Of a DNA stretch of 64,000 nucleotides, positions 23,583-64,000 are shown one piece after another (the stretch's first letter is position 1; each line of letters opens with the position of its first letter). The position numbers and the translations under genes are program-made. The stretch is taken from contig NC_037598.1 of assembly GCF_003073045.1 (NCBI RefSeq), positions 25,171,822 to 25,235,821 of the forward strand. Reading direction: 5' to 3'. The DNA is from Pomacea canaliculata (lineage: Eukaryota > Mollusca > Gastropoda > Architaenioglossa > Ampullariidae). The notes beneath the pieces were generated by a model. The model did not search any database and was not told the DNA's origin. It worked only from the letters and a program-made list of their open reading frames with translations.

Positions 23583-23991
23583 GTAAGGTAGCCTGGTCAT
23601 CAACTGTTTTGCCTTGTATTGAGAAATATATCTTTGTCACTTTTTTGTTGTTAAATCTCTGACATATCTCATGCTTATAAATACATCGTATACATGCTTT
23701 ACTCGTCTGTAAATTTCTGCCATTTCTTTTGGGAAGTGGGGCGAGAAAAGTGAAATATTTAAAGGACAAAACACAATACGACGTCTTTACAATTACATAT
23801 TCTAATTAAAAAAAAATTAAATTTCTTAAATTTCATTTGCACAGAAATCTTTGATTCGCTATCCAAGTGAATTTGAATTATTTGTCTTCTGTAGGCTTCC
23901 TGGAGTTAAAGAAGGAAGGACGATTACAAATATTTGTTGCATGAAGAAATTTTGAAACTAAAAGAAGAAAGACGAGACGCCCATGACGACA

Positions 23992-26692
23992 ATGACGACG
24001 AAAGCAAAGTTAGTCTTTTTCCACGTACTGACGTCACTTCCTGCGTTCTACACCATGAGCCTGGATGCAAACGTCACAGCTGGCCACGCCGTGTCGTCAT
24101 CGCTAGAGCCAAGCGTAGGCGGTGTGGAGATGAGGAAGTTACGTCACATGGAGGCGGAGCTCGAGGTGTTGAGGAGGACAGTGACGGAGCTCAAAGCTGG
24201 CGGGCAGTGTGGGTCACAAAGGTCAGTGTGGGTCACAAAGGTCAATGTGTAACACGAACGTCAGTGGGAACGTGGAGGGAATGAGAGAGAGGGAGAGACG
24301 AACAGAGAAAGAGAGAACTAGAGAAGGACATACAAAAATGAGAGAAGATATAGCAAATGTAAAAGAGCGATATCATAAAGCAAAAAAGAAAAACAGTAAA
24401 AACAAAACCGAATGAAAACAAACGGTCAGAAGGAAGAGTAACAAAAGAAAGAGAAAGGAACACAAAAAATAGAGAGAAATAAAAGGTAATAGCGAAGAAA
24501 GAAGGAAAAAAGAAAGAGAAAAGAACGTCTGTAAAGGTTAGCTTGTATTCCAGTTAGACAAAAAGTATCCTTGAGCGAACTTTATTTTCTCTAATTTGAG
24601 ATACAATATTTGAAAAGAACATTCAAAAAAATGTTGTATTTATTTCCCAGTCTTCCTCTGACATTGAGATATTGTGTATTCGACCAGCTGATGACAGGTA
24701 ACAGATGTTAGAATAGGTGTGTGTGTGTGTGTGTCCGTGTGTGTGGATGTGTGCAGTTGTATGTACAGACTTTAAATCTTAGTATCTTTCTCTGTGTGAT
24801 GTGGATTTTTAAATATATAATTTCTTATGTAATTCATACCTTTGGTCTCTGTGTTCTAGTTGTCTCTAACGCAATTTAAAATCTTGGTCTCTGTGTGTCT
24901 GTGGATGTATTAGATATTCTAACGTATTTTACAATTTTTAAAATATTATATATATATATAACAGCGTTCATCAGCTTCAGCCTTAAAGACCAACCTGAAC
25001 GGTTTTGATTTTCTAGAGATATCAGTAGATGTAGGCGATATAAATATAGTAGATATAAATATAACCTATTTCAGCCTCCACAACCCATCCGTTAATTAAT
25101 TGTCCGCTAACAAAGTACGCTCATTCTCTCTCTCTGATTGGTGTTGACAGCTGGCAATGAGGTGAATGGTGTACTAATGTGACGTAGTACACTGTAATCA
25201 GGTGGGAATCGCTGAAATGTACAGATTACCTTCATATCAACTATCTCTACTGATATCTGAACAAAACACAAACCATTCAGGTTGTTCATTAAATGACTTT
25301 GCTGTGATTTCAGTCCGCATGGAGACCAGTTAAAGGAGCTGATGAGCGAAATACAAGGTCTCCGTTCACAGTTTCAAGCCCTACAAATGCGAAGAGAGTT
25401 ATCTGCCCTTCGCTCTGACATGCTGCAAGCCAAATCTTTGTTAGCAGACGCCGGAAGTAGACGGGACGACCTGCCAGGAGAAGATGCCAGTAAGCAGGGC
25501 TCAGATTTTGCAGGCAGAACAGTGGAAGCTGGTGTTGTCCAGAACATTCCATCCATCTTGAGCTCAGGTATGTCGCCTGCAGACTTTCTTCTGTCGCTTA
25601 TTTTTAGCAACGCGGGTTATGTTGTCTGGTAAAATCACAATTGAAGTCAAAATTGTCCTTTGTCATCTTCACAATACTTGTCAACTGGTCCCCAGCTATC
25701 ACCATATCTTCTACGCTAGTTCCTGTCACGTGCGTGTGAGGACATTGTGGACACTGCGTCATCACATACGTCATAACCTGTGGAGGTCTTTAGTAAACTT
25801 TAACTCTAGGTTATCTTTAACTCTAGTCTAACTCTAGTTGATCTTTAACTCTACTTTCTGTCTACAGGATCCGTGTATGAACGCTGTGGTCACGGAGGAT
25901 GCCCTAATGATACAGAAATGGTTTATACAGGTAAATATTGGGACCTCACGTGTTCGTGTGCACAAGGAGTGGCTGGCTGGCTGCTTTGTCGGGAAAGTGC
26001 TTCTGCCTGTAGGTCACTTTGCATTGAGGATAGAGGGAGGAGGAAGGATGCCTGAATACTTTACGGTTGCTTTTGTTTCTTCGTTGCATAGTCAACTGTA
26101 GGTTAATCTTTAATATTTTCACACAGAACAGTAAGCTTACCTTCACGTAGGTAGATGCACTCTACAAAGTACAGTAATAGTTGCACAGTTTTACCATGCT
26201 TACTCCTCCCTATTACCGTCTTGTCTCTTGTTCCAAGGGATCATCGGTGGTTCTAGTCATGACCAGACCGGAGCAGCTGCCAACGCCCTGTGTCTGCCCT
26301 TGGAGCCTGTGTTAGTAAACAACCCGGGCACACCCCACGTGACACTCATCGTAGGAGCAGAGTTAGAAGTGACCCCTCTCGCCCAGCACGATCTTGACCC
26401 CCTGTGTGCCGTGTGTCGCACCCCACGACCCACCGTCGTCATGGTGCCCGCTGCCAACGCTTGCCAGCTCGGGTGGACGCTGGAGTACTCCGGGTACCTT
26501 ATGGCAGGACACAACACTCACCCGGGAGCCTCACAGTTCATCTGCATCGACAAGCAGCAGCAGACGCGCATGGCGTCGGACAAGAACGAGAACGGCAGAC
26601 TGTTCTATTACTCCACTGGTATTTGCGGTAGTCTCCCTTGCCCACCTTACCAAGCTGGAAAAGTGTTTCCTTGTGTCGTCTGCTCCAAGTGA
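23992..26692 (+). CDS. Short-chain collagen C4-like domain protein, copy A (4 exons)
   Basis: Exons are 23992-24221, 25314-25567, 25868-25930 and 26238-26692. All introns are GT-AG, phases agree (2, 1, 1), and the total is 333 residues. Residues 6-25 are hydrophobic and suit a signal peptide or anchor. Residues about 40-140 are Leu/Glu-rich and heptad-like, as in a coiled coil. Exons 3-4 carry the Cys-rich domain of proteins annotated 'short-chain collagen C4-like': VYERCGHGGCP, ANALCLP, DPLCAVCR, GWTLEYSGYLMAGH, FICID and CGSLPCPPY with a C-terminal CVVC. No Gly-X-Y repeat is present despite the family name. The likely role is an extracellular, oligomerising structural or mucus protein (inference). 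An in-frame ATG at 23983 would add three residues; 23992 is the ATG conserved in copy B. Two tandem GGTCACAAAG|GTCA donors sit at the end of exon 1. Confidence 0.85.
25107..25200 (+). repeat. Half copy of the GTGACGTAGTACACTG repeat family
   Basis: Inside intron 1 of the collagen C4-like gene. It starts with CTCTCTGATTGGTGTTGAC and ends with one GTGACGTAGTACACTGT unit. It matches one arm of the palindrome at 57217-57503 and the blocks at 29885 and 60855. Confidence 0.7.
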
Positions 26693-26884
26693 AGACGATA
26701 ACGGCGACGAACATCAACTACAGTTATGATGATTACATTCTTGGAGCGAGTGGATCATAAAAAACTGCAGAAATGTAATACTTCTTGTTATGTGCACTCT
26801 CAGCAAAGAGCATAATTGTAACTGCAATTATCTATTCTTTCTCCCAATGTTTCATATACTTCTTGCAATTACACAGAAATAACA

Positions 26885-26896
26885 AATAAAAATAAA
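26885..26896 (+). terminator. Poly(A) signals of collagen C4-like copy A
   Basis: Two consecutive AATAAA hexamers lie about 195 bases after the stop codon. One is preserved at the matching place in copy B. Confidence 0.6.
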
Positions 26897-26899
26897 TGT

Positions 26900-27727
26900 G
26901 TGCTGGTGTTCGTTTATGTACGCGATTGTGTACGTGCATGCTACGTGTTATCTAAAAATATAAACACACTATTTTGTGTTCAACCTAGCCTGAAATCATT
27001 TCTTTGTGCTACAAATGTATCCTGCTCACCTAGGGGATAACATCTAACATGAATTTCTTTATTATACGCGTCTTACATTCTTCATACTGTAATAAATATC
27101 AAAGTGCTTTCCCACAATGTAGCAAAACATAATACAGTTTATTATGTGGACATATTCCTTGACAAAAACTATTGTTTTCTCAGATTTTAACAAATTTATT
27201 CAGATAAATCTCAGTCTTAAACTAAGATTTATCCAATTTATTATTCACTCAGTCGTCCCGTGACCGCCACCTGTGGTTGGGTGGATCACATGGATAGACC
27301 GCCACCTGTTGTTAGGGGAATCACATGGATTTCAAAGATCGTATTAAGTTGCATCGAAAAATGTGAAGGCGAAAAGCGGTCAAAGGGAAAGAATTCAAAA
27401 TCACAACGATGGTCTAGTCGGACTGAGTTTCTTCCCCTGTTTATTCATTGCCTTACTGTTTACCGTATTTGAGAATTCCAAGCATGTTTTTTTGTTATCA
27501 GTACAGTAACAAACTACAGCACGAGAACTTTTAAAGCATTAGCCTCTCCTTCTTTCAGGTTTTTGTGGACTGTGACCGCTTGAGTTTATTTACTTTATTT
27601 ATTTCTCTACGTACATCCCTCTATTCTTATCATTCTCCACTACACTCTACTCAGTTCGTCTGTTTAGTACATGTTTTCTCATCAGTATGTGTCTGTGAAC
27701 CTACAGTAATACTTATCTACTTATCTA
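26900..27727. other. 3' flank, no gene recognised
   Basis: AT-rich sequence shared almost unchanged with 59250-60090 in segment B. I see nothing else. Confidence 0.5.
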
Positions 27728-29135
27728 GCGTGAGCATAGCATGAGCATAGCTTGAGCATTGCCTGAGCATAGCTGAGCATCACGATAGCACAGGCTGAGC
27801 ACACACTGAGCATAGCGTGGGCATAGCCTGTGCATTCAATTCAGTTCAATTCAATTTAACTTTATTATCTCACTAGGAGATAGCCTGAGCATCACCGTAG
27901 CACAGGCTGAGCATAGCGTGAGCAAAGCTTGAGGATAGCCAGAGCATAGCTTAAGCGTCACCATAGCACAGGCTGAGCATAGCGTAAGCATAGACTGAGC
28001 ATAGCCGGAGCATAGCTTGAGCATAGCCTGAGCATCACCATAGCACAGGCTGAGCATAGCCTGAGCATAGCTGAGCATCACGATAGCACAGGCTGAGCAT
28101 AGCGTGAGCATAGCCTTAGCAAATCCTGAGCATCACCATAGCACAAGCTGACCATAGCGTAAGCATAGCGTGAGCATAGACTGAGCATAGCCGGAGCATA
28201 GCTTGAGCATAGCTTTAGCATTGAGTGAGCACAGCCTGAGCACAGCCTGAGCATCACCATAGCACAGGCTGAGCATAGCGTGAGTAAAGCGTGAGGATAG
28301 CCTTAGCATAGCCTGAGCATAGCCTGAGCATAGCTGCAGCATAGCCTGAGCATAGCCTGAGCATTGTCTGAGCATCACCATAGCACAGGCTAAGCATAGC
28401 GTGAGCATAGTATGAGCATAGCCTGAACATAGCTAGAGCATAGCTTGAGCATAGCATGAGCATAGCCTGAGCATAGCTTGAGCATAGCCTTAGCGTCACG
28501 ATAGCAAGGCTGAGCAGAGCGGGAGCATAGCGTGAGCATAGCCTTAGCATAGCTTGAGCATTGCCTGAGCATAGCTGAGCATCACGATAGCACAGGCTGA
28601 GCATAGCGTGAGCATAACCTTAGCATAGCCTGAGCATCACCATAGCACAGGCTGAGCATAGCGTGAGCATACCCTTAGCATAGCCTGAGCATCACCATAG
28701 CAGAGTCTGAGCATAGCGTAAGCATATCCTTAGCATAGCTTGAGCATAGCTGGAGCATAGCTTAAGCAAAGCGTGAGCATAGCCTAAGCATAGCATGAGC
28801 ATAGCCTGAGCATAGCATGAGCATCCCCCTAGCACAGGCTGAGCATAGCTGGAGCATGGCTTGAGTGTCTCGTGACCATAGCCTGAGCATTGCCAGAGCG
28901 TAGCCTGGGCATCACCATAGCACAGGCTGAGCATAGCGTGAGCATAGCGTGAGCATAGCTGGGGCATAGCTGGAGCATAGGTTGAGCATAGCTTGAGCAT
29001 AGCCTGTGCATCACCATAGCACAGGCTGAGCATAGCGTGAGCATAGCCTTAGCATAGCCTGAGCATAGCTGGAGCATAGCTTGAGTATAGCGTGAGCATA
29101 GACTGAGCATAGCTTGAGCATCACTATAGCACAGG
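27728..29135. repeat. 11-bp satellite array (TGAGCATAGCC units)
   Basis: About 1.4 kb of degenerate TGAGCATAGCC-type units with interspersed longer patterns such as GCATCACCATAGCACAGGC. Because 11 is not a multiple of 3, all three minus-strand frames stay open for long stretches and each translates into an 11-residue repeat. These frames are a by-product of the repeat and not genes. Segment B lacks the array entirely. About 50 bases of unrelated AT-rich sequence interrupt it near 27834-27885. Confidence 0.95.
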
Positions 29136-29884
29136 AACCTCACTGGACCTAGTCATCGTGCATTAAGGTCAAAAGGTTCTGCTTTTAGAACAAGTTGATG
29201 AGTGAGTGAGATGCATTGTGACCGTTAATTGTTCTTGCTGGGCGGTTTGCAGCTGGGTTCTGTGAAATGACTATAAGACTGTAACACTAACAGCACTTGT
29301 TTTGAGGAAGTGAGTCACAATTAATCTCTAATTATAAAAAGCTTTCGCTTCTATGTCGGCCACTCACTCGCTATTGAATCATTTAAACATGCTTTAGACA
29401 CACGGCTTTTCCATGAGCGTTATTTCAACACAGCTTGACATTATGACAGTTTTATGCGCGCGTGCGCGCGCGCACACACACACTGTCATATCACACAAGC
29501 AGCTGTCTCATTAATGGACTTTACGAACGCACCCATTGTCAACCATGTGTTTCTAAGGACAAGCTGAGCCTGTATAATCTAGGAAGTTGCATCAGTCGCT
29601 CCGCTTCTCCTGTTTCGACACCTTTGGTTGATTCTGTAAGACCACCAGGCTAAAGCCACGCAGGTGTGGAGCTGACTCTTCTGCACTGGGGTGTTGTGTG
29701 TCAGTTGACGACAATCGTGCGATGCACGCGAACCAAGAGCTCATCCCTCATTCCGCATGCGTCCCGAGTGGCGATGAGATCAGGTCCTCGCTACAACGCG
29801 GGATGGAGGAGATGATAAAGACAGGTGAAGAAACAAGAAATAGATGACAACGCTATGCAACCGACAATGAGTGTGTGTGTGTGT

Positions 29885-30027
29885 CGTTCTATCTCTCTGA
29901 TTGGTGATTAACGTTGGCAATGCTGGGAATGGCGCACCAACGTGACGTAGTACACTGTTAGCGTGACGTAGTACACTGTTAGCGTGACGTAGTACACTGT
30001 TACCGTGACGTAGTACACTGTTACCCG
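29885..30027 (+). repeat. MITE-like half element with four 21-bp repeats
   Basis: A CTCTCTGATTGGTG leader and a GGCAATGCTGGGAATGGCGCACC body are followed by four copies of the 21-bp unit GTGACGTAGTACACTGTTAGC. The matching block in segment B (60855-61031) has six units. Confidence 0.8.
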
Positions 30028-31224
30028 AGCTCGTTGATCGCAAGTGCCAATCGTAGAGGATAATGAATTAACGAAAGGGTTATGGACACGTGAAAATTTA
30101 CAGGTTAGTTTTATACCGCCTATATTTACTAATATCTGAAAAAAGCAAACAATTCAATTTGTTTTTTAAGGATTGATTACTTATGTGACCTCCGTCTGGG
30201 CCCATAAGCAAATTAACGAGTCCACATCATCGTTCATCTCTTTAAGGATATAATAAAATGCAGTAAAAGTATAGACAAAGTCAGGTCAGTAGATACCACC
30301 TCCGACAGGTCCCACTACCATTAACAGAGAAAGCGCTACATTCTATGATCTGGTAGTCATATAGTAAGAAATGTTTTTATCATTTTGAACAGTTTGAAGC
30401 TGCTAAATCCTTTGTTTATGCAGGGTTAGCGATGAAAACATTTTCGATTAATGAACGGGAAAAAAAGAAAGAAAGAAATCTTTAAATAGTTTTATTACAC
30501 AATGCGTACTACCAAAACAAATGACTAGCACCACATGCATTGCTAATGTCTTTAACAGAGATGACCAACATTTTAAAAACATAATAAAACCATTACTATC
30601 ATTGGTGATAAACATCACTGATATTACTAACATAACTGACCTTTAAGTTCATCGCCTAATTTTATATTTAAATGCATTAGAACTCAAAGCTACCTTGCTT
30701 GTAATAATTTTAATAAGTAATTTTAATTTTAATAATTGTTATATTATTAGCTTAAGAATATAATCATCATTAGCTCTTTATTAGTAGTAATGCAGCTCTG
30801 AGCCTGAATGCAATAAAAAGCTAATTAAATAAAATATTGAAGAAAACTCTCCTGAGGCGAATTGTGGCCAATGTACTCCAAGATCCTGTGCCAAGTTACA
30901 AAGTGGAACCATTCCTCTGAATGGATACCTCCACATTACAAATAGACATCATCATCATCATCATTCCTCACTAATGAAAGTTCTGCTCGAAAAGGGACGC
31001 GACTCGACTGACATATTCTTTGACCTCACACAATTCACGGAACATCGAGTACAAGAATCAGAAAGTCCTTAAGACGGGGAATAATATTTTAAACAAGCGC
31101 CATCTTTAGAATTGTAAGTAAAGGTATGATAGACCACACTCCAAACATGAAGACTACATAGTCGTCAGAACTTTACAGCTTCCGGTGAGATGATTGTCAT
31201 AAGATGACTGTTCTAATTAGCCCT

Positions 31225-31283
<59 letters not shown>
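31225..31283. repeat. (TTG)n microsatellite
   Basis: About 19 TTG units, read directly. A shorter version is at 62119-62171. Confidence 0.95.
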
Positions 31284-32380
31284 AATAAAGACAGAGAAAG
31301 GTAGGTAACAGCATTTTACTATAGCTGCTGGGGGATTGGGGACCTTTGATGCATGAAGAAAATAAGATGAAAGGGGTTAGGGTTAGGGGAGGTAAGAGAA
31401 GATCATCGTCGGTTACTGTGGTTGGTTCCTTTCTTCCAGCTGTTATTGTCTTCTCTTCAGAAAGCAGAGAACTGCCGAGTCCATGAGAGTGGCACACTGT
31501 ACTGACTGATCAATCCCTGTTCGAGGTTTCTCATGTTGTAGGCTGGCATTTAGTTTGTGTTATTATATTTATTGGCAATATCCAATAGAGCAACGAAAAC
31601 TTGGTCGTCTGTGTTAAGAATCTCAGTTATCCTCTCTTGTATTTCTTTGCTTGATGAAATCCATTGATTTGTTTGTTGGTTTATTCCTGCGTTTATTCCT
31701 AGAGCACTCTCAACTGAGATGTTTTTGACACTGCATGCTCGGATAAACTTTGTCTAACCGAAGACTTTCCCTCTTTCACAGACTTTGAGGTGTGATAGAA
31801 TAACTATATATTTAAGATGACTGAAAAATGGAACAAATCTGTGCTAAGAAGGTGTACACATATCTTTGGATATGATTGCTATTGTCTCTGTGTGTGTGTG
31901 TTTTGTGTTGTGTGTGTGTGTGCTTGTAGTTGATCGCGTTATTTGTTGTTACTATTATATTATTTGTTTCAAGTAATCACATTGAATCCTACGCGAGGAT
32001 TACTAGCAAATTACCAGCCTACTTCACTTAATCATTATTCACTAAACACTAGCACTCCTAAAAACAAAACAAACAAACATACACAGTTGAAGTCTGGATG
32101 ACGAGCATCTCCCAGAACCATTTGCCAGACATCTGACCCCCCATCAAACTATTTGTTAATTTAATTCTACTGTAGAAGTTACTGTTACATGACCGTTACA
32201 TCGCTGTAGCCGGCAAAACGTTTGTGTCTTCATTTAATACATTAAGTGACCATGATGATGTCTTTCTGTCTTTGTGATACGAGACACATCTACTAAAAAC
32301 ATTTCACAAATATTGAGAACACTTCCTGTCTGTGGCGTTCTCTCACAATATACATGGCCTACCCCCTCCCTAACAGTGAG

Positions 32381-32420
<40 letters not shown>

Positions 32421-32421
32421 G
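32381..32421. repeat. (TGT)n microsatellite
   Basis: About 13 units. The segment B counterpart (62888-62942) is interrupted by GCT and GAT units. Confidence 0.95.
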
Positions 32422-32739
32422 ACTTGCTTCCTCTAGATCTTGTGTTGTATAATGTCAAACTGTATGCACCCTCAGACTCAATATTTGTACATCGCATCAT
32501 GAATGCCTCTCTGCCGTTTGTTGTTAACTTATTAAGAAAATTTTCAACACAATTATCTTTCATTGATTTTGGGTTTGTTTTTTTGCTGTGGTGAAAACAG
32601 TAGAAATCGAAAATTTATACATATTTTTGTATTTTTATATTTGTTTGAAAAGGTGATATTGGAAGACTTGTAAATTGTCTGCTGTAGTGTTCTACAAGGA
32701 ATGGCACTGTGATTTCATTTTCTATTTAAAAGGTATAGA

Positions 32740-32740
<1 letters not shown>

Positions 32741-32829
<89 letters not shown>
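32741..32829. repeat. (CA)44 microsatellite
   Basis: An uninterrupted CA run of about 44 units just beyond the poly(A) signal of the secreted-peptide gene. Segment B has only a few CA dinucleotides at the same place. Confidence 0.97.
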
Positions 32830-32831
<2 letters not shown>

Positions 32832-32866
32832 ATGAAATGAAACAGAGACAGGGAACATCTGACGTT

Positions 32867-32872
32867 TTTATT
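32867..32872 (-). terminator. Poly(A) signal of secreted-peptide gene A
   Basis: AATAAA on the minus strand about 230 bases after the stop codon. It is conserved at 63391-63396 in segment B. Confidence 0.55.
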
Positions 32873-33101
32873 ATCAAGATATTTTGAAAGAATCCCTGGC
32901 AGTATCATAGTGGATAAAAACAGTTCACTTTGTAGAAACAAATGTTTTAAGAGATTATTTTCTTGAACATCGTTCTTGCTTTTCGAGAAAAAAAAATAAG
33001 TAGAAAGAGCAGGAAAAAAATTACATCAATCAGCTGACTGAATTGTGGTGACCTCCACGACTAAGTCAGGTCGCTGGTGACGGCAAGGAAGTCTTCCTGG
33101 C

Positions 33102-34396
33102 CTAACGACGTTTACGGCCAAGTCGCGATCCACTAGGCGGAGCTGGCTTTACTGAAAGAGAGACCAAGAAAAATTTAGTGTATACAATTATTAACAATAA
33201 GCAATGAAATAAATTTAACAAGCAAATAATTGAATGAATGAATGAACAAAGAATAAAGCGGGAAAGGGAGATGAACTAGAAATATATTTTATTAACCCAT
33301 CATTTAGTTAGAAGATTTTGAAGGTGAAATATCTACAAGATATTTTAAAAAAATTATAGATAGTATATATGTATAAACAAAGTAGTGAATGACGTCAAAG
33401 TAATGACAAATGACGTCATGTATGAGGTCAACATTCTGAGGAAGCAGACGAGCGGCCATGTCTGTGTGAAGCTAAACACAAGAGACGACCGGTCAGACAT
33501 CGGCGGCAAGGTTGTGTCTACAGATAGTTCTCTAATTACATTATTACTTTGTTTACTTTTGATTGTTTTTGTGTTTGAAATTGTTTTTTATTTACGTATC
33601 ACAAAGTGCTTACCGATGACAGGGGCTTTCCTATCTCCTATTGAGAGAGAACGCTCAGACGGCATTGACCTTTCTGAAAGGAAAAACAGAAAAAGTGCAA
33701 AATAGTGTATCATATATAAAATGTTAACTCGAGAACACAGCCTCCCACACTCAGCGCTACTCTCAGCAAAGCTCGTACGGACACAAAGTTTACCGGACAA
33801 CTACACTCGCCACAGACAACAACTGGCCTCAGGACCGCTCATGTCCTCTCCACCAAAAATTGCATATTGAGTGATGAGAGACAGTATCTGTCTGCAGGTG
33901 TGCTGAATGTCTGAACAAATTATACTTTTCACTGTATGATGTCTCAACGGCACTTAGTGAACAAAATCTATCATCTTTAACGATAAAAACGATGAAAAAA
34001 TAATCATTCCTGATATCCTACAAATTATAATTATACACATAATTATAATGTTTTTATAGTTGGTTTAGCAATGAACAGAACGACATTGTTTTGTTTGCTT
34101 TTCTTTTTCTTGGTATGTTTCAGAAAAAAACATTGCTAAAAAGGTATTGCTATACTATCTGTTGCACTAAGTTCTTTAACATTCTTTTCTTTTCTGCGAA
34201 TACAGTTACACTCCGAGACCAGCGATTGCCTTGTGTCAGTACTTTTCACTTTCTTCAGCTGATTTATAAATTAAGTTTTACAGCTAATGATTGGGTAAAG
34301 CTGAAGTAAACACTCTTAGGTGGCTTTGAAATTGTAGTTTATGCATTTATTAAAATTTAGGTAATCTCTCCTGTTGCCTGCCACTCCGTAATGCAC

Positions 34397-34427
<31 letters not shown>

Positions 34428-34707
34428 GACCCAAAGAAAGCAAACATAATTAGAAACATTGCTTTTCTCGATAGCAAAATGTTTACTATGTTCTTTTGCT
34501 TTTATTTGCTTTCTATTTCTATCTTTCTTTTATTACTAGTAAAGAAGACATGTAGCTTTTAAGGTTCCTCATTCTAAAACTTTTTCGTTAAAGAAGTATG
34601 CTCATTACACTGGGTGTTATCAACTTACCCTTATACAAATCAAGAAACACGCACGTCCCCTCCCCCACGACGAGCAGGCCGACCAAAAGGATGAGAAGGA
34701 CTCGCAT
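33102..34707 (-). CDS. Small secreted peptide precursor, copy A (3 exons, hypervariable exon 2)
   Basis: I do not recognise this gene as a named family. Minus-strand exons are 34707-34629, 33673-33614 and 33151-33102, with GT-AG borders. Both introns are phase 1, which makes exon 2 symmetric. The precursor is about 62 residues. Exon 1 starts MRVLLILLVGLL, a textbook signal peptide, with one Cys near its end. Exon 2 (60 bases) has a dibasic RK. Exon 3 is Pro/Ser-rich and ends GRKRR followed by TAG, the pattern of a C-terminal amidation donor Gly plus basic cleavage site. Processing at RK and GRKRR would release a Pro-rich amidated peptide of about 15 residues (inference). A TATA box lies 87 bases upstream of the ATG and AATAAA follows the stop. 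It could be a neuropeptide, defence or gland/venom-type peptide; the sequence does not decide. Confidence 0.65.
34397..34427. repeat. (CAA)n microsatellite
   Basis: About ten CAA units inside intron 1 of the secreted-peptide gene. Confidence 0.9.
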
Positions 34708-34793: not shown

Positions 34794-34800
34794 TTTTATA
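34794..34800 (-). promoter_or_regulatory. TATA box of secreted-peptide gene A
   Basis: TATAAAA on the minus strand. A start site 25-30 bases downstream would give a 5' UTR of about 60 bases before the ATG at 34707. The spacing is typical, but the start site itself is inferred. Confidence 0.55.
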
Positions 34801-41788: not shown

Positions 41789-42112
41789 TACATATGGTAG
41801 TGTGTAGACGAGGGGACGGCGATAGTGGGTGGTCACCGGAAGAGGCCGAAAATAGTTTTGCTGATGCATGTGGAAAAAGTGCTGATGCTTGCGGGAAATA
41901 GTGCTGATACAGAAGACCGCGAAAAGTGACCCACCCGAGGGGTATATAAGGAGACAGGGCAGTTAGTGTGGGGGAGAAAGTATGTGAGATCAAGGTTCGC
42001 CACTGCCAGAAATATCGACTGGCGTCGGATTAAAACCATCTAGAACCCACGACAGTGTTGTGTTTGGTGTTGTGGAGAGACTGGGGGAAGAATCGCATCT
42101 AACCCTGCTACA
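41789..42112 (+). repeat. 5' LTR
   Basis: Matches 44726-45091. It contains a GGGTATATAAGGAG promoter-like stretch near 41940. It has two fewer copies of the 21-bp GTGCTGATGCTTGCGAAAAAA unit than the 3' LTR. The exact left edge is uncertain: either TACATATGG (the counterpart of TGTATATGG in the 3' LTR) or ATGGTAG five bases later. Confidence 0.85.
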
Positions 42113-42116
42113 TTTT

Positions 42117-42133
42117 TGGCGCCCAATGTGGGA
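42117..42133 (+). promoter_or_regulatory. Primer-binding site, tRNA-Lys type
   Basis: TGGCGCCCAATGTGGGA begins four bases after the LTR's TACA end. TGGCGCCCAACGTGGGG is the complement of tRNA-Lys(CUU) used by several retroelements; this site differs at two positions. Confidence 0.75.
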
Positions 42134-42182
42134 CACTGGGCGAAACTGAACATCTCAAGTCAGCTTAGTGCCGCCAGAGACA

Positions 42183-42572
42183 ATGGAACTAACAGAGGAG
42201 GAGAAGCGAGTGTTAGAGGCCTTCAGGAATTTGGAAGTGAAGCCAACAGCAGACACCTCTGCCGACCTGCACCAATGGGTGGCAGGGTGTGCTGCGACAA
42301 GGGATGGAGTGGAGACTGCGCCGCTGAATGCCAGCGGACCACAGACACCGCGACTGCCGCCATTCTCCGGGGGCAAGAACGACACAGCGCTGGATCTGTG
42401 GAAGTATGAACTGATGTGTTTGCGGGGGAGGTATACAGACGCTGTAGTGTTGGAGGCTGTCCGCCGTTCTTTGAGAGGAGAGGCGGCCAGGGTGGCCATG
42501 CGTCTAGGCCCGCACGCGACATTGAACGAGCTGTTGCAGAAATTTGACTATTTTTGGTCTCGTGGTGTGTGA
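42183..42572 (+). pseudogene. Retrotransposon gag, N-terminal part, frameshifted
   Basis: The frame starts with ATG at 42183 (MELTEEEKRVLEAF) and gives a gag-like matrix/capsid region with LPPFSGGKNDTALDLWKYEL, a pattern typical of Gypsy-type capsids. It meets a stop at 42570, while the continuation of the capsid lies in another frame that overlaps from 42544. The simplest reading is a small indel near 42550. A programmed shift is possible but no slippery heptamer was recognised. Confidence 0.8.
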
Positions 42573-44583
42573 CCAAGACCTACTCGGGTCATTCTACACT
42601 GCGCGCCAGGAGGCCGGGGAGAATGTCACGCAGTGGCGGTGTCGCATAGAAGACATCCTGACACAAGCCCTGAGTGCGTGTCTGATCGAAAGACGCGCAT
42701 ACAGCGAGACGCTGCGCGGCAGACTGTGGGGAGGCCTACGGCAACCCCTAAAGGATCGAACTGCCTACAAGTTCGAAATGGAGACAGACGTGGACGCTCT
42801 ATTTCGCAGCTTAAGACAGGCCGAGCAGGAGGCCGAGGGACCAGCACCAAAGACAGGCGCTGGAAAGCAAGCGGCGGTCAACGCTGCACAAACCATCCCG
42901 GCCGAAGACTGGAATGCAGAGGTGAGGAAGCTGTCGGCCGAGGTGCAGTCGTTGCGGCGCCAACTGCAACAAGGACCACGCAACGAGCCTGCGGCTGACA
43001 AGGCGTTAAACCAGCGGCCACCACGCTCCAGCTACGAGGACGACGGGCCTACATGCTTCAGGTGTGGCGGCAAGGGCCACATCAAAGTGGGGTGTCGGGT
43101 GCGAATTGACCATCTGCGCAAGCCCCTAAACTACAGACTGACCTGCAGAAAGGGGCAACGGGTTGACCAGCGTCCGCCGGCACACGGCCCCGCTGGCGAG
43201 AAAACATTGATAGGTCCCAGCACTTGTGTAGACGTCTGCATCGAAGGTGTGGCCACGGCAGCGCTGCTGGATACAGGTGCCACTGTATCAACGGTGACGG
43301 AGACATTCCATCGCCAGAAGCTGGCACACCTGGCCGTCCGTCCGCTTCAAGAAGTGTTACGTATCGAGTGTGCGGATGGCCGAATGCTCCCGTACTTAGG
43401 ATACATCCAAGCGGATGTACGAGTGGAGGGGGCAGGGGGCGGGGCTGATAGTCTCCCCTGCCTACTGCTGGTCATCCCAGCAACCAGATATAGTGACAGT
43501 GTTCCGGTGCAGCTAGGTACCAATGTCCTGGAACAGCTTATGCACCAGGCACAAGACAAGCAAGGATCCCAGTTCCTGCAGGACGCACAGCTGCAACCAG
43601 TACTGCATCGTTCCTTTCGCTGCCTAGCGATGCGGAACAGAGCGCCGCGCATGAATCGCAACAAGCCTTACGCGCGCGGCTTACAGACAACGACCACCAG
43701 ACCAGTTAATAATGTTCCGTGTGAAAGTGCCATGGGTATGACGGAAGCGGCACCAGACTCTGTAAACTCAGTGGTTATCTCGCCTGATTTGACAGTGAAA
43801 CAGCAGGCGGGCAGAGACATGATTAGCGTCCAGACCGACAATTCTGGAACCAGTGGAACTAATAATAGTGGCAAACTCACATGTGTAAAGGACGCAACTG
43901 AGCATACAAATGGATCAAAGAAAAAACGGACTCTTCGCCGCAACATGTTGCTACCAGTGGGCGGATTAATACAGGATGCGCATCAACCAGAAGATGCGAG
44001 GGATTACTCGCTGTATCGGAGGAAACGAAAGCCACGCCGCCAGTTCAGTGAGGACGACACATCTAGTGCACAGTCATCCGCCGGTGAAAATGAGAGCGAC
44101 AGTGACATGTCTAGCTCTGTGGTCGTACATACCCGGCCGCCAACCACCAGATCAAGAGGACAGCCGCCGGCGAGTGATGACAGCGACCAAGAACAGCAAG
44201 CAAGAGAGGACAATGAGGCAGAACCACCCAGGCCACTCCCTGATCCTGATTCAGAGAGCACCACCCTTCCTCCACTGCCTAATGACAACGACAGTCAAGG
44301 ACCGGATGTTCAGGAGGGAGGGAGAGATAAGGAGGGGGCTAAGCCACGTGCAGTGGTTACCCCGCCCCCGTCACCAAGCCACGCCCCGCGAGCGTCCACA
44401 AGGCCACGTCAGCAACCGACGTGGATGAGAAGCGACGACTACATACTTCGCCAGCAGCAAACACTAGACAATTATAGCTTTAAATGTGACAAACTGAAAA
44501 TGCTGCTGAGCAAGTTATCATCAGAAAAACTGCCTGAGACTGTGGTGACCACGCTTATTAAGGCTGTCTGGCCACTGTTATAA
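42544..44583 (+). CDS. Retrotransposon gag C-terminus, CCHC knuckle and protease
   Basis: A frame of about 679 codons. In order: capsid C-terminal part (about residues 1-100), a CCHC knuckle CFRCGGKGHIKVGC at 43054-43095, and an aspartic protease core LLDTGATVS at about 43264-43290. The rest is a long low-complexity acidic, Ser/Pro-rich region ending with a leucine-rich helix. No YxDD reverse transcriptase box and no HHCC or DDE integrase motifs are present. The frame is intact over 2 kb, which is notable for a non-autonomous copy. Confidence 0.8.
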   Translation: MTIFGLVVCDQDLLGSFYTARQEAGENVTQWRCRIEDILTQALSACLIERRAYSETLRGRLWGGLRQPLKDRTAYKFEMETDVDALFRSLRQAEQEAEGPAPKTGAGKQAAVNAAQTIPAEDWNAEVRKLSAEVQSLRRQLQQGPRNEPAADKALNQRPPRSSYEDDGPTCFRCGGKGHIKVGCRVRIDHLRKPLNYRLTCRKGQRVDQRPPAHGPAGEKTLIGPSTCVDVCIEGVATAALLDTGATVSTVTETFHRQKLAHLAVRPLQEVLRIECADGRMLPYLGYIQADVRVEGAGGGADSLPCLLLVIPATRYSDSVPVQLGTNVLEQLMHQAQDKQGSQFLQDAQLQPVLHRSFRCLAMRNRAPRMNRNKPYARGLQTTTTRPVNNVPCESAMGMTEAAPDSVNSVVISPDLTVKQQAGRDMISVQTDNSGTSGTNNSGKLTCVKDATEHTNGSKKKRTLRRNMLLPVGGLIQDAHQPEDARDYSLYRRKRKPRRQFSEDDTSSAQSSAGENESDSDMSSSVVVHTRPPTTRSRGQPPASDDSDQEQQAREDNEAEPPRPLPDPDSESTTLPPLPNDNDSQGPDVQEGGRDKEGAKPRAVVTPPPSPSHAPRASTRPRQQPTWMRSDDYILRQQQTLDNYSFKCDKLKMLLSKLSSEKLPETVVTTLIKAVWPLL

Positions 44584-44725
44584 ACGCAACATGACTACAG
44601 CAACAATTTGTACATTTATGTTTATAAGTTTGCCTAAGATGTATATATTTTTATAGCACGTTACATTTGGAAAAACTATGGGTTCTAGTTTTAAATGTCG
44701 AGGACAACATTTCTCCTCGAGGGGG

Positions 44726-45091
44726 TGTATATGGTAGTGTGTAGACGAGGGGGCGGCGATAGTGGGTGGTCACCGGAAGAGGGCGAAAATAGTTTTGCTG
44801 ATGCATGCGGAAAAAGTGCTGATGCTTGCGAAAAAAGTGCTGATGCTTGCGAAAAAAGTGCTGATGCTTGCGGGAAATAGTGCTGATACAGAAGACCGCG
44901 AAAAGTGACCCGCCCGAGGGGTATATAAGGAGACAGGGCAGTTAGTGTGGGGGAGAAAGTATGTGAGATCAAGGTTCGCCACTGCCAGAAATATCGACTG
45001 GCGTCGGATTAAAACCATCTAGAACCCACGACAGTGTTGTGTTTGGTGTTGTGGAGAGACTGGGGGAAGAATCGCATCTAACCCTGCTACA
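44726..45091 (+). repeat. 3' LTR
   Basis: Same sequence as the 5' LTR plus two extra 21-bp units (GTGCTGATGCTTGCGAAAAAA), about 42 bp longer. A purine-rich GAGGGGG tract lies just upstream at 44719-44725 and would serve as the polypurine tract. Confidence 0.85.
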
Positions 45092-45095
45092 TTTT

Positions 45096-47859
45096 TACAT
45101 CAACAAACTTTCATATTGAGAAGCCGTAACCTATGATAGTCAAACAGTCTACAAATGTAAGGACCTGCTGATTAACGGAAGAACCTAAATAAGAGTAAAT
45201 GGAGCTCTCGGGAAATAAGAGATGAAAAAGAAGTTCTGAAACAAACTTACATGAGTTCTGAAAAAAATAATTAAAGTTGTACATTTTAACACAAAAATAT
45301 GGAGCGAAGCTGCTTAGACAAAAGTAAACGATTAAAGCTTTTACAACAGTTTAAACAGGTATCGGCAAAGGTAACAGCAACGATTGGATAAGTCAGGAAA
45401 AGTGCAAACTGAGAGATTAGCCAAGACAATCAACAATCGAAATACCTGTTGACCAGGTAGATCACTGGTGATGGTGTTTGATGCTGCTACTCTCCCGACA
45501 GAAGGGTACTAAGCCGACAGACGGCAGTCAAGTCCTTGTCCATCAACATGGTGTGCAAGCTCTACCTTCCCAGTGTCTAGTACTGCTACTAACATTACCT
45601 TTCCTTCTGCAAGAACTATTTCTCTGTATAATTGCAATTTATACCTCCATCCCTAGTTTGAAAGTGTTCAAACGATAGCTCCTCCCTCTTGTGACCTTTG
45701 AAATAACACAGGTCAGTAGTGACTCTTTGTAAAATGTTTGTTATGACGACAGCCTCCCCCGCTCACCCAAATAATACAAAAGATAACAGGTCAACAGTCA
45801 GGAGCAAAGTTTTGTCAGGTCAGGTGTACTTGCCTAGTATACAGGGCAACGACCTTTCCCTGTAATCGTGGCAACGACCCTTGAAGCACATGGTACCAAA
45901 GGGAGGTCTAATATCCGCCGACAGTCGTCCTCATTGGTTGGATGGACCGAGAGGGATGCAGACAACGAGAAGAGGAATAAATTTAAGATAAGAAAAAAGA
46001 AAAGCGTTGTAGCTACCGTCTGCACTGAGCACGACCGGCATCTGTCTCAGGTCTGAAAGCAGGTGGAACTCACTCTGATGAGCGAGGTGAAGAGAGTCTG
46101 TAGGTGTACAGGACTGACACGTGATCAGACAGCATCTACAGCAGGCACTGTCGTCATTACACTTTTGAATTTTCTAGTATTTTTCCATGTAGTTTTTTTG
46201 GACATGTTAGAAACTCTCTTGTTACAATTTCTGCAAATGGTTTCAGGTACTGAATGTGAACACATGGCTGTCGACCTGTGCTTGTGTTCAGTACTTGAAG
46301 CCTGTGAGTGACCGATGTCGACGAAGGAGAGGATGCTCTTGACCTCCGGCTGTCTGTCTTGTGATTTGCTTAATGGTTGCATCATCGTCGCCTAATTTCC
46401 ATGTGGAAGTACGTGCCTTCGATGCCCTGATACACGTTTGGTATACAACATGTGTCAAGTTCACATTCACATTGTAGGTTGCCTCATCATGTCCTTGTCC
46501 TACTCGACTTTCTGACTTTTTGTACCAATTCATCCCCCGTGCAGACGTAAGGCGAGGGAATGTTTTTTCATCAACCTTTTCAACATGCAACAGCAGTAGA
46601 ACCTTTGTGCCAGAGACGAAAGCAGACGATTAATGAGAGAGGGGAGGGTTGACAAGGAACACTTTTATTCTAAAACTGACTTTAAGTAAAACATTGTATG
46701 CATAATACAAAGTGTAATGACACATTCTTGCGGCGTTGGCATTTGGTTTGATGTTCTTATCATCTATCATTCATTCTCATCGTCATCATATGGAGCAAGA
46801 ACTTTCTACTTTTGTTCTAACGGTTTGGACGTTTTGGTCTGCTTTACAGTCATTTGAATTACCTGTGTCCTTACTACGACTAACTCACTGTAGGGGTCCG
46901 ATTACACTTTCAAAATAAATGTTATACTCAGGTAAGACAGTGGTCCTGTTAGTCGTTACACTGCGTGTAGTAGAATATAACAATTTTTATTCAGACATTA
47001 TTTGCTATGAATATAATGAACTACACAAACTTACAAATGTGTATCTTCTGCTCAGCTGTCAATAATATTGCTGGCTCTCACCTCTTCGTTTATTATTTTC
47101 CTTGATAACGATTGGTCTGGCAAGCTGTCAAGAGCAGTAATTAAAATATATTGAAAATACTCAGGTGACTGTGCATCCGCAAATCTTTACGAATGCAAAA
47201 TGGTTTGGAACAAGTCCTTTTTTTTAATAATGTGCAATGCACAGCGATGAAGGTTTGTACACCGACACACGCAGGCAACATTTAGCCGCCAGGTCTTCAC
47301 AGTTACTATGGAGATGCTTTTCATGGTCAAGCAATGTGTTGATGTTAAAAAAGGTCTCTTCCCATAAAGACGATTTAGCACTGTACATAGCTGGGGAAAT
47401 GGGGAGCCCGGATGTATAGGAAAATGAGATAAAAGTAGTAAGGAGGTTAGGGTTAGGACAGGGAGACATCGTTGCTGATGTTGCTGACTTTCTTGTAATT
47501 GTTTCTGTCTGCTCCTGGAAAGCCACAGATGACTTGGTAAGTACCAGTCGTGACGTGTGAGAAAGTTTGCTTGATCACTGTTCTACTGTTCCACTGTTCC
47601 ACTGTTCCTAGACTTTAGGCTTCAGTTTAGTTTTGGGCGTGTGTTCATATTTTGACACATTCAGTTTGTCCGACCTTTGCCATATCTCTCTTGCCAAAGC
47701 TAGATGTGTGATAGAAGAGCTATGGAAACCTTACCGTTACTAGAAGATTCTTTAACACGCCCATACATGAAAAAAGAAAGCTGTAGAGAAAAGGTGCATA
47801 CGTGCTGTGTAAGATGGTTTACATCGACATTAGATATGTGCCTTCAGAACGAGAACCGC
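45096..47859. other. Intergenic, no gene recognised
   Basis: Frames at 45868-46056 and 46063-46311 were examined. The second has a hydrophobic stretch and several Cys but no supporting splice sites. A GGGTTAGGGTTAGG-like stretch occurs near 47445, and TGTTCCAC repeats near 47580-47610. Confidence 0.45.
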
Positions 47860-48010
47860 GGGTAACCTGCCGGCCCCAAGCCTGGGTGAAGGAGGAGGGT
47901 TGGACGAGGGGCTAGCAACCCCACCCGGTAACGGTAAAGCAACCCCTGCTACAGTGTAACTGCAACCCCATCCTCCACTGAAGGCGGAAAGGGAATAAGA
48001 AGAAGACTAC
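47860..48010 (+). repeat. LINE 5' UTR-like fragment
   Basis: Contains AAGGAGGAGGGTTGG and GGGGCTAGCAACCCCACCC. The same sequence occurs on the minus strand at about 52285-52350, directly upstream of the LINE endonuclease frame, and at 56078-56205, so it marks the 5' end of that LINE family. Confidence 0.7.
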
Positions 48011-51756: not shown

Positions 51757-52370
51757 CAGGTGGTCTTGTGAATGGTTTTGTGTTGAAAGACTGTGCCTCC
51801 GACTACAAGGTCATTGAACAAGTCTGTGAGCAGCTCATCATTTTCATTGCAGTTGCCCACACCGTGCTTTCCCATTATGTGTCCTTTGTCTGTGTTGTCA
51901 TTTCCAACTTTGGCATTCATGTCGCCCATTATGATCTTTAGGTCTCGTTTTGGAGTACAAACAACCAGTGCTTGTAGGGAATTGTAATAGTCTTCTTTTT
52001 CCTCTTCTGTAGCTGCGTTGGTAGGTGCATAGCACTGGGTGATCGTGATCGTTCTTCCTTTGGAGTTGAACCTGGCTGACATGAGTTGTGGGGACACTGG
52101 TTCCCATGCTATTAGTGATCTTGCTATTAGTGATTTTTGCCATGGCCGTGAGAAGATGGTTCGGCGAGCTGGCTTCCCGAGGGCTTTCCCCAGCACGCGT
52201 CATAAGCTCATCCAAACAGGAATCTTCCCGTCCAGGCTCCAGTTGTACAGTTGGTATGTTTGTGGTTTCTGTAGCGTTTTAGTCTTTGTCAGGGTGGGGA
52301 TGCTAGCCCCACACCTAACCCTCCTCCTTCATCTGGGCTTGGGACTGGCAGGTTACTCGAGTGGTTTCCA

Positions 52371-53035
52371 GGCAGAGTTATATATATATATAGCCATGAT
52401 CGGTTAATATTTGAATCGATCTTTGAAGAAGTTGAACATACAGACTCCACGCTTTCTCCAAAGGTATAACACGATGGGTTATGACTGGGAATTAGTATCA
52501 ACACAGCGTTTGAAGTTCGTCTGAAAGCAGTACGGATCCAGTAGGGTACCTCGATTAAAACTTATTTTAATTCAATTTCTAACTTTTATTTTAACATAGC
52601 AGTGTATTTTCCTGATAGTTTAATAACCAAGGAATCCATATTTAAAGAAAAGTCAAACTGCACAAAGCTGACTCCTGTCGCCTTTCGGGGCCTCGAGCAC
52701 ACAACTGTTCCGAGCGACTTCAGACTCATTTCGTCGTGTAGGTCACATATAGTCGGGTTCTTACCAAACGATCCTTTGATACAAGTGCACTTAGAGATAG
52801 GTAACAGCGGCGTCTGTCAATGTCAAGGCTTGTCTTTGTCCTGTGCGCTCTCACAGGTGTTACAGTTTTCTCACATGTCACGCATGGCTAGTTCTGCACG
52901 GTAGTCTAGTCACACGAGGTTCAGATGCACATACTTGTCCACAGGAAAGTAACTGAAGTACATTCCAGACACCGAATTGCTTCTCTTATTACCAACAAGG
53001 CCAAAACATTTTTGCAAAAACGTTTAAAAAAGTCG
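52371..53035. other. Intergenic, no gene recognised
   Basis: Between the LINE and the large inverted repeat. Short open frames at 52602-52904 have no domain and no partner exon. Confidence 0.4.
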
Positions 53036-53465
53036 GTGAGGCTGTTGTATATATACATATGGTTCAGTGGTACGAGCTGGCATTGTGGGGATGCTCTTGA
53101 TGTCGGCGATGTGTGTGCGTGCGGGCATGTCTTATTTTGCTTAGTTTTCTTTTCCAATCGTTGTTGTTTCACTTGTTTATTTCTCTGCTGGCTCTTGGTG
53201 TCTTTCTTTATTAGTTGTCTGGTATTGACATGAGTTGGCGTTGGGGTTAGCTATGATTGGGATTAGGGTTAGGCTTGTGTTGGGTTGTTGCTTATATCTG
53301 TTCACAGAAAAGCTGGTATATGTAAGCACACTACACAAACACACTGAGCCAGGTTTACTTGATTGCTAATCCCTCCCTAAACACGCCCCCTGGCTTAGTG
53401 CAGTCAAGCAGCACACGGACTTGCCGCAGGTGTTACCTGACTTGTTTGGGAAACTTTTTACTTTC
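53036..53465. repeat. Large inverted repeat, left arm
   Basis: Imperfect reverse complement of about 54620-55207. Shared landmarks include CAGCTTTTCTGTGAACA-type sequence, the GTGTAGTGTGCTTACATATACCAGC stretch (read in two parts), the GGGGGCGTGT block and the ATATATACAACAG edge. The spacer is about 1.15 kb. Confidence 0.8.
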
Positions 53466-54619: not shown

Positions 54620-55207
54620 AGACCTGTAAAAAGTTTCCCAAACAAGTCACGTGAGAGTTGCGGCACCAGCAAGTCCGTGTGCTGCTTGACTGCACTCAGC
54701 CAGGGGGCGTGTCCAGGGAGGGATTTGCCCCACCCACCCTGCTGACAGGAAACACGAAGTGTTCAGCCAATCAAACGTTACCTTGCTCACTGTTCAGGGA
54801 AGGGTTGGGGGCTAAATTTTTTTCTCACAGTGACTAGGTCAGGAAAATTCAGATGATGAGACTAAGCCACCAAGCAAGTAAACCTGGCTCAGTGTGTTTG
54901 TGTAGTGTGCTTACATATACCAGCTTTACTGTGAACACATATAACCAACATCCTAACTGTAACTAAACCTAACCCAAAGCCTAACCCTAATCTCAATCAT
55001 AACTAACCCTAACGCTATCTCATGTAAATGCCAGACAATTAATAAAGAAAGACATCAAGAGCCAGCAAAAAATAAAGAAATGAAACAACAACGACTTGAA
55101 AAGAAAACTAAGCAAAATAACAAACACATCGCAGAACTCAATCCAACAACATAACTACGATGTCAGCTCATACAACTGAACTATATAATTATATATATAC
55201 AACAGCT
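54620..55207. repeat. Large inverted repeat, right arm
   Basis: Pairs with 53036-53465. The right arm is longer and has extra short insertions. No transposase, target duplication or clean termini were found, so the type of element is open. Confidence 0.75.
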
Positions 55208-55394
55208 CCATGGACACCAGGGATGCTTTCTAGTATGTTTTTTTCTCCGACTTCTAAAACCGTTTTAGCTAAAGTGTTTTGGCCTTAGTAACATTATTAT
55301 ACACGGTCTCTGCATCTCCATCAACCTTACCTTTATAATACGACATTTACATCCTATCTACACAACTGTCGAGGGAGAAAAAAAGAAAGAAAGA

Positions 55395-56077
55395 GTTATT
55401 TATAGCTTTTTCTGGTTTTCCTTTTAGAAGTAAGAATACTGGGTGAGCTTCGTGGACCACGAACAGCCCGTGTCACCGGTAAGCACTTTGTGTCGTTGTG
55501 GGTAATACGTGTATACAAAACAATTTCAAACAGAAAAACAATCAAAAGTAAACAAAGTAATAATGTAATTAGAGAACTATCTGAAGACACAACCTTGCCG
55601 CCGATGTCTGACCGGTCGTCTCTTGTGTTTAGCTTCACACAGACATGGCCGCTCGTCTGCTTCCTCAGAATGTTGACCTCATACATGACGTCATTCGCAC
55701 CATTACTTTGACATCATTAACTAACTTCCTCCATAACAGTAGCCGCTATAAATAGTATCATTAAGACATGTAATATTTAAAATGTAATGTTGCTGCTATA
55801 AATATTATTTAACATATATGCTTTCTACCATTTTTTTTTTAAATCTTGCAGATATTTGACCCTCAGAATCATGTAACTAAATGACATTCGATATCTTGTC
55901 AGTCTAACACTCAGTCTATGGTTAATAAAATATAATTCTAGTTCGTCTCGCTTGCCCGCTTTATTCTTTGTTCGTTCATTCAATTATTTGCTTGTTGAAT
56001 TTATTTCATTGCTTATTGCGAATAACTGTGTACACCACACATAGTCTGTGGAAACTTTTACTTGGTCTCTCTTTCAG
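55395..56077 (+). pseudogene. Inverted fragment of the secreted-peptide gene (copy C)
   Basis: Plus-strand counterpart of the minus-strand region 33150-33740. It holds the end of intron 1, exon 2 (55428-55478, 51 bases), all of intron 2 and its acceptor (GGTCTCTCTTTCAG at 56077). Exon 1 is absent because homology ends near 55395, and exon 3 is replaced by LINE-derived sequence. Exon 2 is symmetric (phase 1 to phase 1), open in the required frame and very different from exon 2 of copy A, while the introns are nearly identical. Most likely a gene fragment. An unseen upstream exon cannot be excluded. Confidence 0.65.
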
Positions 56078-56205
56078 ATTATTATTCCCTTCCCGCCCTC
56101 AGGGAAAGCTGGGGTTGCAGTTACACTGTAGCAGGGTTTGTTTTATCGGGTGGGGTTGCTAGCCCCTCGCCCAACCCTCCTCCTTCATCCGGGCATGGGG
56201 CCGGT
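56078..56205 (-). repeat. LINE 5' UTR-like fragment abutting the copy C acceptor
   Basis: Reverse complement of the sequence at 47860-48010, beginning at or next to the base after the exon 3 acceptor of copy C. Read in the plus direction and in the phase required by that acceptor, it is open for about 81 codons to a TAA at 56320-56322, with five Cys. Confidence 0.6.
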
Positions 56206-60850: not shown

Positions 60851-60854
60851 GTTC

Positions 60855-62887: not shown

Positions 62888-62905
62888 TAGTGTTGTTGTT
62901 GTTGC

Positions 62906-63390: not shown

Positions 63391-63396
63391 TTTATT
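63391..63396 (-). terminator. Poly(A) signal of secreted-peptide gene B
   Basis: AATAAA on the minus strand, at the same place relative to the stop as in copy A. Confidence 0.5.
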
Positions 63397-63617: not shown

Positions 63618-63667
63618 CTAACGACGTTTACGGCCAAATCGCGATCCACTAGGCGGATCTGGATTTA
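63618..63667 (-). CDS. Secreted-peptide gene B, terminal exon only
   Basis: Minus-strand exon of 50 bases after the acceptor CTCTCTTTCAG, entering in phase 1 like copy A and ending GRKRR then TAG. Compared with copy A there are three base differences, each changing an amino acid (Lys to Asn, Ala to Asp, Leu to Phe). The Gly-Arg-Lys-Arg-Arg processing signal is unchanged. Exons 1 and 2 would lie beyond base 64000, so whether the gene is complete cannot be seen. Confidence 0.6.
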
Positions 63668-64000
63668 CTGAAAGAGAGACCAAGAAAACGTTTCAACAGA
63701 CTATGTGTATTGTATAAAACTATTAGCAATAAGCAATAAAATAAATTTAACAAGCAAATAACTGAATGAATGAACAAAGAATGAAGCGGGAAAGCGAGAC
63801 GAACTAGAATTATAGTTTATTAACCCGTCATTTAGTTGAAATGTCTGCAAGATATTTAAAAAAAATTATAGATAGTAGATATGTATAAACTAGGTAGTGA
63901 ATGACGTCAAAGTAATGACAAATGACGTCATGTATGAGGTGAACATTCTGAGGAAGCATACGAGCGGCCATGTCTGTGTGAAGCTAAACACAAGAGAAGA

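Follow-up and report, generated by a model that had tools for sequence, protein, structure and literature searches.

Can a coding exon change faster than the introns that flank it, and if so, what keeps the introns alike while the exon varies? An exon that outruns its introns is seldom seen and is an informative sign, and such a case seemed to be present in a 64,000-nt stretch of the Pomacea canaliculata genome (NC_037598.1, 25171822-25235821; the whole stretch analysed, hereafter the window). There, a sequence-only reading had noticed that exon 2 of a small gene (gene A) differs strongly from its counterpart in a second copy (copy C) while the adjacent intron 2 is nearly identical, and had likened this to the diversifying selection of conotoxin-type genes. 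The window was analysed together with the genome (440 Mb, 24 contigs), and coordinates past 64000 are window coordinates continued beyond the window end.

Gene A has canonical splice sites and encodes a predicted 62-residue product starting with a typical signal peptide. Its features, with site counts from the seven array genes described below, are as follows:

34795..34800, minus strand: TATA box, 93 bp before the ATG
34707-34629, minus strand: exon 1 as a whole
34651..34707, minus strand: signal peptide part of exon 1, codons 1-19 (2/57 sites variable)
34629..34650, minus strand: exon 1 tail, the first codons behind the signal peptide (11/19 gap-free sites variable)
33674..34628, minus strand: intron 1, with its last 150 bp near-invariant
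33614..33673, minus strand: exon 2, 60 bp (22/60 sites variable)
33152..33613, minus strand: intron 2
33102..33151, minus strand: exon 3, the last 16 codons and the stop
32867..32872, minus strand: AATAAA behind the gene

The gene A peptide had no homologue sharing three 5-residue words in the protein collection searched (short genes of this sort can escape annotation) and matched no Pfam family. Against the PDB it found no conotoxin chain and just two weak matches, both to designed proteins. As a sanity check, a plasmid collection was searched with the region, and gave no match.

A genome search located exon 1 at nine loci, i.e., seven in an array of ~140 kb (genes A, B, and G3-G7) and two elsewhere (the distant genes L021 and L022), and additionally returned one 32-base promoter piece. 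This number is a lower bound (at least nine), and the same nine came back when the search was repeated with a query taken from the distant copy L021. Each gene consists of a TATA promoter, exon 1, one or two 60-bp phase-1 cassette exons, and a last exon. Genes A, B, G3, and G4 have three exons, and G5, G6, and G7 carry a fourth, in that exon 2 is duplicated into two 60-bp exons (2a and 2b). The exon 1 tail of the array genes measures 18 or 21 bases, followed by a final shared G. Apart from those of the C type, every one of the 12 exon-2 sequences has an open frame and a length of exactly 60 bp; this absence of indels is weak evidence, with about two expected from intron 1. Intact-looking models yield products of ~54-89 residues, and the net charge behind the signal in the gene models is positive (+2 to +10, by gene and exon choice). 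In none of the nine gene models does a cysteine occur after residue 19, and most exon 2s contain a basic pair RK or KK (KQ in G3, MK in G5b).

The family is best read, from its gene models, as unannotated genes for putative cationic, cysteine-free, conotoxin-like secreted peptides. It was not named in the literature searched, although it may still have been published. An amidated neuropeptide was also considered in view of the GRKRR C-terminus of A, B, and G4, and was rejected with G3 ending in GFKGR and the ends of G6, G7, and L021 differing as well; GRKRR-type neuropeptide strings were not found in the literature searched. Since G5 has CGG in place of CAG ahead of exon 3 and L022 lacks the GT after exons 1 and 2, both of them may be defective. 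The seven-gene counts omit L022 but include G5, whose removal leaves the number of variable sites in exon 2 at 22. In both distant genes the signal DNA is preserved, as is the 33-bp end of intron 1 (94% identical to A), with quite different exon tails and exon 2.

Gene B lies at the window end:

63391..63396, minus strand: AATAAA behind gene B
63618..63667, minus strand: exon 3 of gene B
63668..64000, minus strand: part of intron 2 of gene B within the window
64137-64196 (continued coordinates, beyond the window end), minus strand: exon 2 of gene B
64864-64942 (continued coordinates, beyond the window end), minus strand: exon 1 of gene B

It is carried, together with a short-chain-collagen-C4-like gene, by a large direct duplication (23613-33485 vs. 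56528-64000). The two C4-like genes (23900-26700 and 56900-59050), duplicated along with genes A and B, are 96% identical in their C4 part, and more distant relatives lie at 96.2, 145.2, and 162.5 kb (continued coordinates), so that members of two secreted gene families take turns along the array. The C4-like gene neighbouring the peptide gene has its named close relatives in Pomacea and Batillaria. The first C4-like gene is followed by a minisatellite-like array (27726-29135, many self-matches at 76-87% identity). The window also holds an LTR-type element (41792-45096) with direct repeats at 41859-42117 and 44838-45096 that are ~98% identical; it has one long ORF with weak gag/aspartic-protease matches, and no reverse transcriptase was noticed in it.

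When the A-C pair was re-measured, the original observation was confirmed. Exon 2 of A (33614-33673, minus strand, 60 bp) and its counterpart in C (55428-55478, plus strand, 51 bp) are both bordered by AG and GT. The 9-base gap reported between them was found again, but the 29/51 matches reported with it became 31/51 identical bases upon realignment. The alignment of the adjacent intron 2 returned the five substitutions and one 12-base indel previously given, and what had been described as about 100 identical bases is a run of 111 (A 33519-33409, C from 55585). Likewise, both exons are indeed open in the same phase and differ in length by a multiple of three, a combination with a chance of ~18% under random fill, so that the frame argument alone is weak. 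Mismatches amount to 20/51 in exon 2 vs. 45/458 in the whole of intron 2 (Fisher p = 3e-7). The earlier comparison had used the most conserved part of intron 2 as its reference, as 14/240 positions differ in the 5′ half vs. 31/218 in the 3′ half, and the whole intron contains six gaps of 2 to 78 bases. Moreover, the central part of exon 2, comprising 43 bases of A and 34 of C, cannot be distinguished from unrelated sequence by its alignment score, which 14% of 2000 shuffles equalled, with the 31 bases upstream of the exon matching at 25/31 and the last 13 exon bases at 11/13.

Copy C itself is a fragment, with the following features:

55285..56077, plus strand: copy C, akin to a 2b exon with its upstream intron end and intron 2
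55428..55478, plus strand: exon-2-like segment, 51 bp, open
56079..56204, no strand assigned: dispersed repeat where exon 3 of C would start (relatives at 47870-48001 and 52269-52343)

Three such loci exist, i.e., C (55428), C2 (75836), and C3 (122683; continued coordinates), which share the 51-bp exon-like segment, the surrounding intron, and the repeat starting at the expected place of exon 3. In the stretch fetched, none of the nine exon-1 loci lies upstream of C on its strand, and C3 has lost about 104 bases directly behind exon 2, donor included. Because of the missing exon 1, the repeat at exon 3, and this deletion, the C-type loci are best read as gene fragments, and C as a full gene was rejected on the first two grounds. 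A mobile intron 2 was rejected too, as the homology in C is not confined to intron 2 but takes in the last part of exon 2 and the preceding intron. Directly upstream of C lies an inverted repeat (52990-53461 and 54626-55290, pieces ~79-86% identical).

From 55285 on, the upstream part of the C-type loci matches the region before exon 2b of G7 and not intron 1 of A. Exon 2 of A, in turn, looks like a 2a/2b fusion, with bases 1-33 differing from type 2a (G5a/G6a) and bases 34-60 from type 2b (G7b) by one mismatch each, at a split point (base 33) chosen by eye after viewing the alignment. Of the aligned copies, only A has lost the 12 bases of the neighbouring indel (C3 lacks that stretch). With A a hybrid and C a relic of the 2b side, their comparison sets different exon types side by side. 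It is thus very likely that the A-C contrast arose from comparing unlike things, namely a decaying 2b-side fragment and a 2a/2b hybrid whose exon difference would be old or replaced and whose intron 2 would be young. Against this stand the split having been picked with the alignment in view, and the comparison of C with C2, in which the relic exon (5/51 differences) is not clearly slower than the surrounding block (57/1204). The sequence facts of the A-C pair are correct, yet the pair is poor evidence for fast exons: a replacement making exon 2 of one copy foreign, which the sequence-only reading had named as what would undo it, is nearly the situation of these two differing exon types.

Unlike things do account for the A-C pair, with no need of a fast exon there, but not for the pattern across the seven array genes, where the claim that exons change faster than introns does hold. 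These genes were aligned from the promoter to exon 2, with C left aside and gap-free sites counted. The promoter and 5′UTR around the TATA box are near-identical (2/118 sites variable), and the signal codons vary without any amino-acid change. Intron 1 is variable at 78/607 sites (6/148 in its last 150 bp) vs. 11/19 in the exon 1 tail and 22/60 in exon 2, and within exon 2 the variable sites are distributed as 3/4 in the first four bases, 3/25 in bases 5-29, and 16/31 in bases 30-60. The mean pairwise differences (pi) are 0.010 in the signal, 0.047 in intron 1, 0.243 in the exon 1 tail, and 0.174 in exon 2. Exon 2 exceeds intron 1 (p = 1e-5) and its last 150 bp (p = 5e-9), p values that are optimistic because sites in related genes are not independent. 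The mature-coding parts (i.e., the exon 1 tail, exon 2, and partly exon 3) thus evolve several times faster than the promoter, signal, and intron 1.

Individual pairs reveal the same contrast. Between A and B, exon 2 differs at 16/60 sites vs. 0/57 in the signal, 0/149 in the last 150 bp of intron 1, and 45/666 in the whole of intron 1. The 2b exons of G7 and G5/G6 differ at 9-11/60 sites vs. 1 of 126-130 downstream and 11-13 of ~119 upstream, and in some pairs this upstream flank is as divergent as the exon (9/128 vs. 2/60 for G5b-G6b). G5 and G6 hardly differ in exons 1 and 2. Exon 3 differs at 13/50 between G3 and G4 vs. 2/100 in the 3′UTR and 5/58 upstream; it is fast in pairs with G3 and not above its flanks in A-B (3/50), A-G4 (4/50), and B-G4 (3/50).

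Might the exons then simply be unconstrained, with the introns, promoter, and signal being unusually constrained or recently homogenised and diversifying selection playing no part? The last 150 bp of intron 1 and the 111-base core of intron 2 are indeed far more conserved than the remaining intron, and intron 2 also contains a recurring palindrome:

33390..33418, no strand assigned: two TGACGTCA palindromes in intron 2 of A (starts 33390 and 33411)

A perfect pair of these palindromes, 21-24 bp apart, occurs in 11/12 intron-2 copies, including those of L021 and L022, and in A it lies at the edge of the core identical to C. Within the window they are also found at 63902-63930 and at 55686-55693, C having one. 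We take the palindromes to be of the CRE/ATF type, and their conservation suggests that the pair is a candidate intronic regulatory element. However, exon 2 is above every 60-column window of intron 1, if by a small margin (0/548 windows reach its 22 variable sites, the maximum being 19, and two windows come near the exon peaks with pi of 0.20 and 0.17). In addition, length and frame are kept in 12/12 of the non-C exon 2s, and the boundary between the frozen and the variable part of exon 1 is sharp, falling at codon 19/20. With these points against it, a family of merely unconstrained exons is unlikely, even though it would fit the codon statistics.

Those statistics, obtained across the family as the sequence-only reading had proposed, gave a dN/dS of 1.63 (codon-bootstrap interval 0.91-3.74; six genes, G5 dropped), i.e., a ratio above but not significantly above one, and omega = 1 was not rejected (2*delta lnL = 2.38, six genes). 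Summed over the 21 pairs, the signal shows 12 synonymous and 0 nonsynonymous differences, and the mature part has a pN of 0.216 and a pS of 0.129. Silent sites of the mature part exceed intron 1 as well (~10/59 vs. 120/2488, p = 0.0006; three independent pairs, counts rounded). Under pure selection, silent sites would be expected to match the intron, and the excess suggests that recombination among copies contributes as well. Of the conotoxin-type scenario, the gene layout and the fast mature-coding parts therefore stand, but it is not established that diversifying selection acted alone.

The exons are indeed mosaic. B and G5/G6 differ at 1/22 sites in their tails and at 16/60 in exon 2, and G4 and G7 at 0/19 and 9/60, respectively. 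Within exon 2, 26 of the 171 biallelic site pairs fail the four-gamete test. Moreover, the exon-2 and intron-1 trees disagree, and no single tree fits the shared exon segments. Recombination that keeps exon types and homogenises their surroundings probably acts together with selection. The silent-site excess, mosaic segments, and four-gamete failures would suit a targeted change, in which short exon segments are hypermutated or replaced through gene conversion by those of diverged donors, with drift doing the rest, and diverged exon-like fragments do lie within the same array (candidate donors being the 2b exons, C-type fragments, and distant copies). However, a whole-tract donor could be pointed out for none but the 2b-like 3′ end of A, and the frozen signal indicates change filtered by function, making targeted change followed by drift quite improbable. 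Finally, a wrong minus-strand model, with an antisense coding exon explaining the conserved block (33364-33705, plus strand, in A and 55396-55713, minus strand, in C; 113/105 codons with a hydrophobic stretch), is a minor rival with hardly any likelihood: this frame is open in both copies and kept by the 9- and 12-base gaps, but has no homologue, no PDB match, and one Pfam family far below the cut-off, in a window holding 174 ORFs of at least 80 codons, and the minus-strand model has a promoter, signal peptide, splice sites, and AATAAA.

We consider it reasonably probable that in this unannotated family, exchange within the array homogenises the scaffold and reshuffles exon segments while selection favours different mature peptides. 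Gene conversion and unequal exchange would keep promoter, signal, and introns alike, and the same exchange may reshuffle exon segments among the array copies. Older, differing exon variants would be retained, the likeliest reason being an advantage of having different mature peptides. With less certainty, the predicted peptides might act at an interface with other organisms, in host defence or other secretion; a role in defence or other contact with foreign organisms is a guess by analogy, as other families with fast mature peptides act so. It is a new family evolving in a known way. A bolder version, and a doubtful one, is that a non-venomous snail diversifies a set of secreted peptides with a cassette system, in which a frozen signal exon and introns would serve as the scaffold for short exon segments swapped among genes, 2b exons, and C/C2/C3. 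If true, it would be a germline parallel to the diversification of conotoxins or 185/333 genes, with repertoires possibly differing between individuals. As the pattern occurs here in a compact and complete array (nine genes found, with duplicated and hybrid cassettes and relic fragments) of an easily reared, invasive, and sequenced snail without venom, the contributions of selection, gene conversion, and targeted mutation become testable.

Exon divergence above intron divergence is also a property of snake venom phospholipases and abalone sperm lysin, for which positive selection has been established by codon tests. The apple-snail genes resemble them in their fast exons, but the proteins are unrelated and dN/dS is here not significantly above one.

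Among gastropods, the excerpted account of the Conus conotoxin superfamilies describes a conserved signal peptide, a hypervariable mature peptide, mainly three exons, and duplicated genes (PMC10561478). As far as that excerpt goes, the apple-snail family matches it in its frozen signal, variable mature part, about three exons, and duplication, all in a gastropod. In contrast, the variable part of the apple-snail genes starts within exon 1 and takes in a 60-bp cassette exon that has been duplicated, and the gene A peptide yielded no sequence match to conotoxins in the protein collection, Pfam, or PDB. Conotoxin mature peptides typically, though not universally, have a cysteine framework, and the cysteine-free apple-snail models offer no disulphide framework. 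To our knowledge, P. canaliculata has no venom duct. The family as a true conotoxin family is hence not shown.

A further parallel in gene architecture may be drawn with the citrus SCAmpPs, in which, according to the portion of the source at hand, the promoter, first exon, and intron are near-identical between paralogues and a short product segment is hypervariable, with targeted mutagenesis or strong selection being discussed as its cause (PMC4409773). Within the limits of that portion, both families encode small precursors with frozen surroundings and a variable product segment, but SCAmpPs are plant genes with two exons, a cyclic 5-10-residue product, and unrelated sequence (PMC4409773).

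The sea-urchin Sp185/333 genes are described, in the extracts of their account, as clustered and segmentally duplicated, encoding secreted and highly variable defence proteins with mosaic exons (PMC3091723), and the apple-snail genes are likewise clustered, duplicated, predicted to be secreted, and mosaic in their exons. Sp185/333 genes have two exons and larger proteins, and in the same extracts the diversity of their introns generally exceeds that of their exons (PMC3091723). Set against that description, the apple-snail family presents the opposite arrangement, in which the diversity of exon 2 (pi 0.174) is above that of intron 1 (pi 0.047).
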